A DNA stretch of 64,000 bases from Halichondria panicea (lineage: Eukaryota > Porifera > Demospongiae > Suberitida > Halichondriidae). The position numbers were made by a program, and so were the translations under genes. The stretch covers positions 161,001 to 225,000 of the forward strand of contig NC_087391.1 in the NCBI RefSeq assembly GCF_963675165.1. The letters run 5' to 3'. Below, piece after piece: positions 34,454 to 37,842 of the stretch. Numbering within the stretch: position 1 is the stretch's first letter; every line of letters begins with the position of its first letter. Under the pieces are notes generated by a model. That model saw nothing but the letters and a program-made list of their open reading frames with translations. It was not told the DNA's origin and searched no databases.

Positions 34454-37400
34454 TTATGAAGCAGTATTATTTCTGTCACTGTTTTTTTCATCGATTAGTT
34501 TTGGGTCATAACCGTGACAACACAGTAGGTTGACTCGATCAACGACACTGTGCAGTATTAGTAGGGCTTCTTCGTGAGTCTTCCCGAGAAGGCTCTGAGA
34601 GTTGACCTGGAGGATACGGGTACCCACTGAGAGGCGTGGCTCCAACTCTGCTGCCCCACCCGCTACAATCTGCAGGGGAACAAAACACATTACTATAATA
34701 TCGTGTAGTGGCGGTGATAACTTTAGTACCGTTGATCCAATGTTAAAAACGTTATGATTTTCTGAAAGCTTAGAAAGAGACCTTTCAAATGATGTGTTCA
34801 AATCCAAAATTTCGTGCGAACCCTATTTTTGGGCGTTTGGACCATGGGCTATTTATTATCCATGGTATGGCCAAATTGACAAATACTTTCATCTCTCAAA
34901 TATTAACTTTGATGACACCATTATTTTGAAAGGTCTCTTTCTAAGCTTTCAGAAAATCATAAAATTGTTGAAATTGAATCAACGGAATTCAAGTTATGGC
35001 AGCTGAAAGAGTCACTGAACAATGCGAGGGAGATTGAAAATTGTTATTGTAACTATTGCTATATAAAACATCAGCTGTGATAACCCACCTGTGATATGAA
35101 AACGCCCTCGTCTGTGTCATCGAGGGGATTCCCCTGCAGAGAGTTGACCCCGCCCCTCACAGAGAATCCAAACCCTTCCCCTGGCTTTGTCACCAGAGTT
35201 AGCCACACGAGACCAGGGGGAGGGGCTTCGTGTCGTACCAGTAGTGAGAGGGGGGAGGGGCTGGTCTTGAGCAGGTTGATCACATGATCATGTTTAGCAT
35301 TACCAACGTCCTCCGAGTTCACCTATAAATTCAAAAGACATTTAGTTAGTGTCCAAATTAGCAAATAATTTAATGGGGTAATCAAAAGATCATTTATAAG
35401 CCACTCAAAGTTAGTCCCCAATTGTTTGTTGTCTACAAAGAGTGAATGGTATTTTATACCACACACACACACACACACACACACACACACACACACACAC
35501 ACACACACACACACACACACACACACACACCCACCCACCCACACACACACACACACACACACTCACTGTGAGAATTCTGTCCCCCACTCGTAGTCTCCCA
35601 CTCTTGTGAGCTGCTCCCTCAGGTCGTATCTCAGCCACAAACACTCCGGGCTTGTCTCCTTGTCTGAAGACTGCGTTAGGTCTGTCAGCCCCTCCCATCA
35701 CTAACACTCCCAGTGGCTTGCCCTCCGTCTCCACGGTCACCATCTAGGGAGGAGACAACAGCAGCATAGTTACTAGATAGATAGACAAATGCAACTAAAC
35801 ATGAGAAAACACATCAAGTACAGTAAAACAAAGTGAGATATGCCATTAATCATCTTGTTAAGTGTACGATAGTCACAATCTAATGGTGGTGGCCTAAACA
35901 GGAAATAGACATCCACAATTACACTACACTATTTGGACACAGAGATATCTGAGCCAACACAAGCTATTGTTGGGACAGTGAGCTATGGAGTAACAATGGA
36001 TGACCATGTGTACCTCTACTGCTGTGGAGGCATGGCGAGGTTCAAGCCCTGAGAGTTGAGAGCCTTTCTTTTTCAATTTCTTTCTCAGAGTAGATCTTGC
36101 ACTAGTCACATGACATTCCAGAGCGTCTATAAGCTGTGTGTGTGTGTGTGTGTGTGTGTGTGTGTGTGTGTGTGTGTGTGTGTGTGTGCGTGCGTGTGTG
36201 TGTGTGTGTGTGTGTGTGTGTATGTAATGAAAGCTACAAACTGTTTTCCAAACGGGACACCTAATCACACATATCACATGCTCTATACAATACAAGCTGA
36301 CAAACTGATATTATCAATATTCCCCACTACATGTATTAGGCTCACTTGCTGCAATAGATCCGGGTCTTCCTTAATCAGTGGCTCATGGTCCACAATATGG
36401 AGGAGAAAATCTCGTGACATGCTCGGAAATCGCACCTTTGCAAACACTTGAGAGGCGTGGCATCTCCGCCACTCGAGGTCATAGGTCACCCATCCCAGTA
36501 CAGCCTCGTACACTTGCTCCTCTGAGGTAATAGCAATCTCCTCCAACTCCACGATCTTAGCCACCACTTCCGGTCTGTCCAGTGTCAGAAACTCTCTCCC
36601 ACGAGCTATGTCCAGGAAGTTGCTCTCGATGTAATGCAGTGTGGCTTCCATCAGCTCAGCACTGTTCTGGTCTTCACCAAACAACCACGTGCCGATGCAA
36701 TTAGACTTGTTCATCTGAAGCTTGAGAAACTTACAGCAAGCACCCTTCACACCAGAAAAGCCTAGCACATCCGCGGCTTCAAAAATGGAGTAAATGTTTC
36801 GGTCGGTGATCTTAATTCGTGAAGTGTAGGCAAAGTCGACAAGCAACGGAAGAGTTCCTTCATCAATTTCTTCAATATAAAGCAACTCTCCTTCTGGTAA
36901 AGCATTCTCTCCAATAAGCATGCTCTCAAAATAGGTACTAGAGGCAGCCAATACGATCCTGTGTGCCTTTACATCGCCACAACTAGCACTGACTGTGATG
37001 TCACAAAGATGTCCCTCACGACGAAGCTTGCTCAGACGTTCAAACATGTGTCTGGAGTTGTCTTTCTCACAATAGTCCATTTCCCTCGGAGGTGGTTGTG
37101 CGAAGGTTACGGGTAGTTGTAGACAGGCCGACATAGTAATACTCAGTTGAGGGCTGACACTTCCAGGGGAATGTGCGCCAGACAGCTCCTCAGAAGTGGT
37201 AGACTTGAGACTAGATTTCTCTGCAGATAAACTACGCTGGGAACGAGATGTATCTTCGTAGCTGTCTGTGAAAAAGCCTGGTATTTTCAGATCCATATCG
37301 ACCAGAGAGGGTGGCCTTCGCTCGATGTGTGAGAGGTCCTCTCCTATATCAGGTAAGTTCTCATCGGATAAACTTGACATTGTTGAGGGCAAATTTTTTT

Positions 37401-37842
37401 TCTTTCTTTCTTCGAAAGCGGCACGAAATTTTGCGGGTAATCCGGCTAAGTGTGGTCTGGAGGATTCACTGGGCTTGAACTTTGGTCTGCTGCCATGGAG
37501 AGAACGAGACTTCTTTGAGAATGGTGAATGATTGATATCGATGGGAGTAGCGTCGTGTTCATTGTCGTCAGCGTGGTGTTCCGACCGTTTGGACTTATGC
37601 ATTGACGACAGGGAATAACCGAAGGAGGCCCCTCCCCCTGCCGTGAAGAACGAGGGCGGTGGGAGGTCGGTACTGGTGGAGTTGGATCGTGGTTTTGGAG
37701 GTGGTGGCGGGGGTAGCCCAGGAGTCGAGGTGGTTTTCGAGAGTAGTGGTTTAGATTTAGACTTTGGTAGGGCACTGTCCTCACCCAGAGGAGCATAGCC
37801 GTTGTTAGGAGGCTTCCTGGAGCCCGAGGGTGACTGCATCAT
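34454..37842 (-). CDS. BTB-BACK protein fused to two Scribble-type PDZ domains
   Basis: Five exons, all phase 0: 37842..36346, 36133..36014, 35743..35567, 35322..35089, 34669..34454 (747 aa). Residues 1-255 are low complexity with a Pro run (GLPPPPPPKPR). A BTB domain (about 260-370; REGHLCDITV, KAHRIVLAASSTYFESML) and a BACK domain (about 375-515; CIGTWLFGED, VRFPSMSRDFLLHIVDHEPL) follow, as in Kelch-like CUL3 adaptors. Exon 2 completes the BACK end (LIDALECHVTSARSTLRKKL). In place of Kelch repeats come two PDZ domains (540-628, GKPLGVLVMGGADR; 638-730, GEGFGFSVRGG, NPLDDTDEGVFIS) like Scribble PDZ3-PDZ4. The product could link CUL3 ubiquitination to polarity ligands. Exon 3 starts with ATG, so two abutting genes remain possible. 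Confidence 0.8.
34710..35010. repeat. fold-back repeat family, copy E (best preserved; BTB-PDZ intron 4)
   Basis: The left arm (GCGGTGATAACTTTAGTACC, TATGATTTTCTGAAAGCTTA, GAAAGAGACCTTTCAAATGA) and right arm (TTTGAAAGGTCTCTTTCTAA, GCTTTCAGAAAATCATAAAA, AACGGAATTCAAGTTATGGC) pair over about 80 bp. The centre holds GGACCATGGGCTATTTATTA then TCCATGG. The whole intron could fold into one long hairpin. Confidence 0.92.
35460..35566 (+). repeat. (CA)n microsatellite at the donor of BTB-PDZ exon 3
   Basis: About 100 bp of CA (GT in the gene sense) begin right after the donor GTGAGTGTGTG, interrupted by CCACCCACCC. Confidence 0.95.
36135..36220 (+). repeat. (GT)n microsatellite before the acceptor of BTB-PDZ exon 2
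   Basis: In the gene sense this is a CA tract running straight into ACACACAG/CTT, with no separate pyrimidine tract. Confidence 0.95.

Follow-up and report, generated by a model that had tools for sequence, protein, structure and literature searches.

BTB-BACK-Kelch proteins recognize their substrates through Kelch propellers. In the sponge Halichondria panicea, a BTB-BACK region of Kelch-like type appears to run into two PDZ domains of Scribble type, which raises the question of whether a single gene joins the two halves and, if so, whether its product could act as a CUL3 adaptor. The genome comprises 131 Mb in 39 contigs, and the window, the whole stretch of 64,000 nucleotides analyzed here, lies within contig C15 (5.98 Mb).

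Exon chain and domain layout

The predicted gene is built from five minus-strand exons, with lengths that are all divisible by three and with phase 0 at every junction. The first-pass annotation had placed this five-exon, phase-0 chain at 34454..37842, and both chain and coordinates are right: the exons are open, and the four introns have GT donors and AG acceptors throughout. Exon 1 (36346..37842) encodes an N-terminal region, the BTB domain, and most of BACK. Exon 2 (36014..36133) supplies the end of BACK and a basic linker, closing with EPRHASTAVE. The fusion junction is intron 2 (35744..36013; 270 bp), after which exon 3 (35567..35743) opens with an ATG and encodes the first part of a Scribble-type PDZ3. 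Exon 4 (35089..35322) carries the end of PDZ3, a short linker, and the start of PDZ4; exon 5 (34454..34669) holds the remainder of PDZ4, a short tail, and the stop codon. The product of the joined exons is 747 residues long.

The domain layout can be read from the same sequence directly. A Pfam profile scan of the 747-residue protein, with matches reported up to E=0.01, places BTB at residues 270-374 (5.7e-20), BACK at residues 382-484 (3.6e-21), and PDZ in two further stretches (1.2e-29). At the same threshold, the scan returned no match to Kelch, leucine-rich repeats, or RING anywhere in the protein, and no match of any kind across residues 1 to about 269, a region that includes the stretch PPPPPPKP. 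The earlier claim that a PDZ pair occupies the place of Kelch is thus borne out by the presence of BTB, BACK, and two PDZ domains without Kelch.

The surroundings of the gene are densely packed. On the plus strand, a UBR-box zinc finger gene runs from about 38294 onwards in the opposite direction, and the two genes may share a promoter region because their divergent starts are separated by ~450 bp. UBR proteins include N-recognin ubiquitin ligases. On the minus strand, the next gene has its apparent start at about 34265, ~190 bp beyond the fusion-gene stop; its exon 32847-33146 contains a NIF phosphatase-like domain, and we take the gene to resemble mitochondrial TIM50. Intron 4 of the fusion gene contains a 73-nt inverted repeat (34717-34789 and 34925-34997; 88% complementarity, arms 135 nt apart) that resembles a small terminal-inverted-repeat element, and a similar stretch was seen by eye in a reading frame near G000:C2:809995. 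Further along the window are a SIR2 domain in a long single ORF (57295-58602, minus strand), a 2OG-Fe(II) oxygenase domain (ORF 56376-57086, plus strand), a SAYSvFN domain, listed as uncharacterized (ORF 19201-19668, plus strand), and a NUDIX domain just over the cut-off (ORF 27536-28183, minus strand). Elsewhere in the genome, a peptidase C1-like exon (G000:C9:2570213-2570782, L056) reads SSWAFS in place of the CGSCWAFS or CGSCWSFS of the other family members compared; its catalytic cysteine seems to be replaced by serine.

The PDZ pair, Scribble, and the single-gene question

The closest match to the PDZ pair is PDZ3-PDZ4 of human SCRIB (4wyt; E=2.5e-47, query residues 6-193 of 208), in an alignment that takes in the short inter-domain linker. 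Searched singly, PDZ4 is clearly Scribble PDZ4. PDZ3 ties between two SCRIB chains, with 61.2 bits to the PDZ3 chain 7qsa and 61.1 bits to another SCRIB PDZ chain, 7qrt; the former is called PDZ3 from its 171 bits to human PDZ3, against only 51.7 bits for 7qrt. PDZ3 chains are among the top single-domain SCRIB chains that match the fused PDZ3, and because of the tie, the PDZ3 label rests on the tandem alignment together with the exon structure. No relative of the fusion protein or of its PDZ pair was found in prokaryotic contigs, and none of the PDZ pair in viral contigs; these results concern prokaryotes and viruses and have no bearing on other animals. The histidine that marks class I ligand binding in PDZ domains is kept in both fused domains when these are aligned with Scribble.

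Scribble homologues have been reported in all sponge classes (PMC5968619), and the present genome holds a separate Scribble on contig C2, from about 803 kb, in which leucine-rich repeats are followed by PDZ domains. The last of these form a PDZ3-PDZ4 pair at 815.1-816.7 kb. All three of the reading frames scanned there match leucine-rich repeats, two of them above the curated cut-off, and from their order we read the repeat and PDZ pieces as one Scribble gene. Identity of the fused pair is 43.7% to this separate pair (80/183; about 42-44%) and 48.6% to the human pair (89/183), whereas the separate and human pairs share 52.4% (97/185). From these values, we take the fused pair to be a diverged paralogue. 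A four-sequence maximum-likelihood tree of the pair has a support of 50, with all three topologies within the 95% set.

The same divergence bears on the idea that the locus is a decaying gene or an assembly join without function, a reading that we consider very improbable. At about 42-44% identity to the separate Scribble pair, the fused pair has stayed open over a long divergence. The five open exons with GT-AG sites throughout, the strong Pfam domain scores, and the position of the window inside a contig of several megabases also speak against decay or misassembly.

Are the two halves one gene or two neighbors? The exon structure of the PDZ pair provides the main answer. In the alignment of the two pairs, exons of the fused gene start at columns 1, 60, and 139, and exons of the C2 Scribble at columns 1, 39, 60, 100, and 139, all in phase 0. 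Each of the three exon starts in the fused pair, including the junction before PDZ3, therefore has a counterpart in Scribble. Column 1 is the cut point that was chosen in both sequences, and the boundary before PDZ3 is the same in the two genes because the alignment is gapless from this column to the binding loop. Under a uniform model, the chance that both internal introns would fall on Scribble positions is 3.6e-5. The boundary at the junction looks inherited, and at the level of sequence, nothing speaks more strongly for a single gene than these boundaries in common. The Scribble-type PDZ3-PDZ4 assignment of the first-pass annotation stands on the same boundaries and on the tandem alignment to human SCRIB.

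A different arrangement would consist of a Kelch-less BTB-BACK gene ending in or after exon 2, followed by a short gene for two PDZ domains, with the ATG at 35743 as its start codon. This arrangement would explain why an ATG opens exon 3 and why in-frame read-through from exon 2 meets a stop after 29 codons, within intron 2. Packing is tight enough for it: two genes 270 bp apart are conceivable because the downstream minus-strand neighbor apparently begins only about 190 bp after the fusion-gene stop. Yet the coincidence of the exon-start columns places the exon-3 ATG at an internal exon boundary common to Scribble, where the C2 gene has a lysine in the aligned position. Exon 3 is also immediately preceded by a pyrimidine-rich acceptor and continues the phase of exon 2, and its ATG has T at position -3, where the ATG of exon 1 has A. 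None of 12 poly(A) hexamers occurs in intron 2, and likewise none in the 254 bp past the real stop; introns 1, 3, and 4 hold some of them, so the scan is uninformative on gene ends. Two neighboring genes are, in our view, unlikely. The single splice chain proposed by the first-pass annotation is well supported by the coincident exon starts, and the BTB-BACK and PDZ exons probably form one gene with one transcript.

The BTB-BACK half and CUL3 docking

The closest solved chain to the BTB-BACK part is KLHL3 (phmmer, E=2.5e-46). BACK homology crosses the junction of exons 1 and 2, extending 8 residues into exon 2 in the phmmer alignment to KLHL3 and 13 residues in that to KLHL11, which confirms the earlier view of exon 2 as a continuation of BACK. 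An AlphaFold model of BTB-BACK alone reached a mean pLDDT of 42.3, too low for use.

Paralogues within the genome give the layout from which this gene departs. From 18 genome matches, 14 BTB-BACK loci were counted, leaving out the window gene itself (two matches), C17:5001430 (which lies inside the fetched locus L067), and a weak match at C5:3103207. Seven of the 14 loci were scanned for Kelch, which follows BACK in six of the seven ORFs; in the seventh, Kelch-like repeats were read by eye in a later frame. The end of exon 2, EPRHASTAVE, resembles the PR-containing linker that precedes Kelch in paralogues, for example PRKSTVG in two of them. The resemblance is suggestive only, and the last residues could come from the Scribble side. 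By alignment with this family, the fusion junction is placed where Kelch would begin.

Whether such a protein could dock onto CUL3 depends on details of the BTB and BACK surfaces. In KLHL3, the phi-x-E motif is M83-S84-E85, and the substitutions A77E, M78V, and E85A severely disrupted CUL3 binding (PMC3616122). The fusion protein reads N-A-L at the corresponding columns of the alpha3-beta4 loop, so that the motif is missing in register at both key positions. Hydrophobic-x-E is kept in 13 of the 14 paralogue loci (counting Y in one and L in one as hydrophobic); the fourteenth reads H-R-E, and the glutamate is thus kept in all 14. The missing phi-x-E counts against an ordinary CUL3 adaptor.

These residues lend weight to another reading of the same single gene, in which the fusion is real but does not bind CUL3, and the BTB dimer acts as a bivalent PDZ scaffold or as a competitor for Scribble ligands. 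The loss of both key positions in a genome where the paralogues keep them is what such a scaffold would predict, and E85A alone was enough to disrupt KLHL3-CUL3 binding severely (PMC3616122). Three features point the other way. First, the BACK domain as a whole is well kept, and its start, a putative 3-box, lies in a region that aligns with KLHL3; the 3-box is the first hairpin of BACK (PMC3616122) and is reported to be critical for high-affinity CUL3 binding (PMC10564622). Second, the fusion protein has a shifted L-P-E two residues downstream of the phi-x-E register. Third, the motif is altered in gigaxonin as well, which reads P-P-K at the phi-x-E columns of our BTB-BACK alignment and has been described as an adaptor that brings substrates to Cul3 (PMC4234992). 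The source that describes gigaxonin in this way regards a function through Cul3 as not yet established (PMC4234992). We regard a ligase-free scaffold as possible, though doubtful.

The first-pass annotation had proposed a ubiquitin ligase adaptor. What stands of this proposal is the conserved BTB-BACK; the adaptor role is only partly supported because phi-x-E is missing in register and the KLHL3 E85A substitution alone was so disruptive. CUL3 binding may still occur, since gigaxonin, a reported adaptor, departs from the motif too, and we give docking of the fusion protein about an even chance.

Proposed origin and action

Among the readings weighed here, we tentatively favor a dimeric, PDZ-reading CUL3 adaptor encoded by one gene, while holding this to be somewhat short of an even bet; the ligase-free scaffold follows closely. 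Under the adaptor model, the PDZ3 and PDZ4 exons of a Scribble gene would have entered a Kelch-like gene of BTB-BACK-Kelch layout at a phase-0 intron, and the Kelch propeller of that gene would have disappeared. Dimerization through BTB would then present two PDZ3-PDZ4 tandems per dimer, and the tandems would bind C-terminal S/T-x-hydrophobic (class I) peptides, as Scribble does. Class I ligands are expected because each PDZ domain keeps its histidine. Proteins bound in this way would be joined by BTB-BACK to CUL3-RBX1 for ubiquitination, through a docking surface unlike the usual phi-x-E. The sequence itself gives the exon chain, the domains, their homology, and the exon boundaries in common with Scribble; the single transcript, the loss of an ancestral Kelch, the dimerization, the ligand class, and the docking to CUL3 are what we infer from it. 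The fuller proposal, in which a CUL3 adaptor choosing substrates by class I C-terminal PDZ ligands degrades Scribble's own partners in an early-branching animal lineage, is more speculative still.

The protein can be compared with four known systems. With the KLHL family, of which KLHL3 is the nearest solved chain, it has in common BTB, BACK including its end, and a PR-containing linker; it differs in the replacement of Kelch by two PDZ domains and in the loss of phi-x-E in register. With Scribble, a LAP protein, it shares the PDZ3-PDZ4 sequence, the domain order, the short linker, and the three exon starts, but it has BTB-BACK in place of leucine-rich repeats and further PDZ domains. Gigaxonin (KLHL16) resembles it in a BTB-BACK with a departing phi-x-E region, and to our knowledge is without PDZ. 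The LNX/PDZRN proteins, which combine RING with PDZ, would follow the same logic if CUL3 binds, pairing a ligase part with substrate-choosing PDZ domains; the fusion protein differs in having no RING and in the Scribble-like character of its PDZ pair. Gigaxonin, unlike the fusion protein, has Kelch (PMC4234992). The PDZ domains of LNX1/2 are related to MUPP1 (PMC3162930, PMC7373230). The combination of RING and PDZ is said to occur in the LNX family alone, save that arthropods apparently made a reverse-order PDZ-RING independently; an orthologue of LNX1/2 has been reported from the sponge Amphimedon (PMC7373230, PMC3162930).

The first-pass annotation knew of no described protein with this architecture, and the open-access literature agrees at the level of titles and abstract openings, where the broader searches found no BTB-PDZ protein among the matches listed; a narrower search of open-access papers for BTB-PDZ wording returned none. 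The words BTB and cullin are absent from the main text of a review on LNX proteins (PMC7373230). An architecture of this kind would have arisen through exon shuffling at an old intron. With the fusion protein, the tolerance of CUL3 docking to a missing phi-x-E can be tested directly. With a PDZ tandem in the place of Kelch, ligands of a polarity scaffold may be handed to a ubiquitin ligase, or else tethered by a BTB dimer; if the former is true, the adaptor would represent a solution independent of, but equivalent to, the RING-PDZ one of the LNX family.
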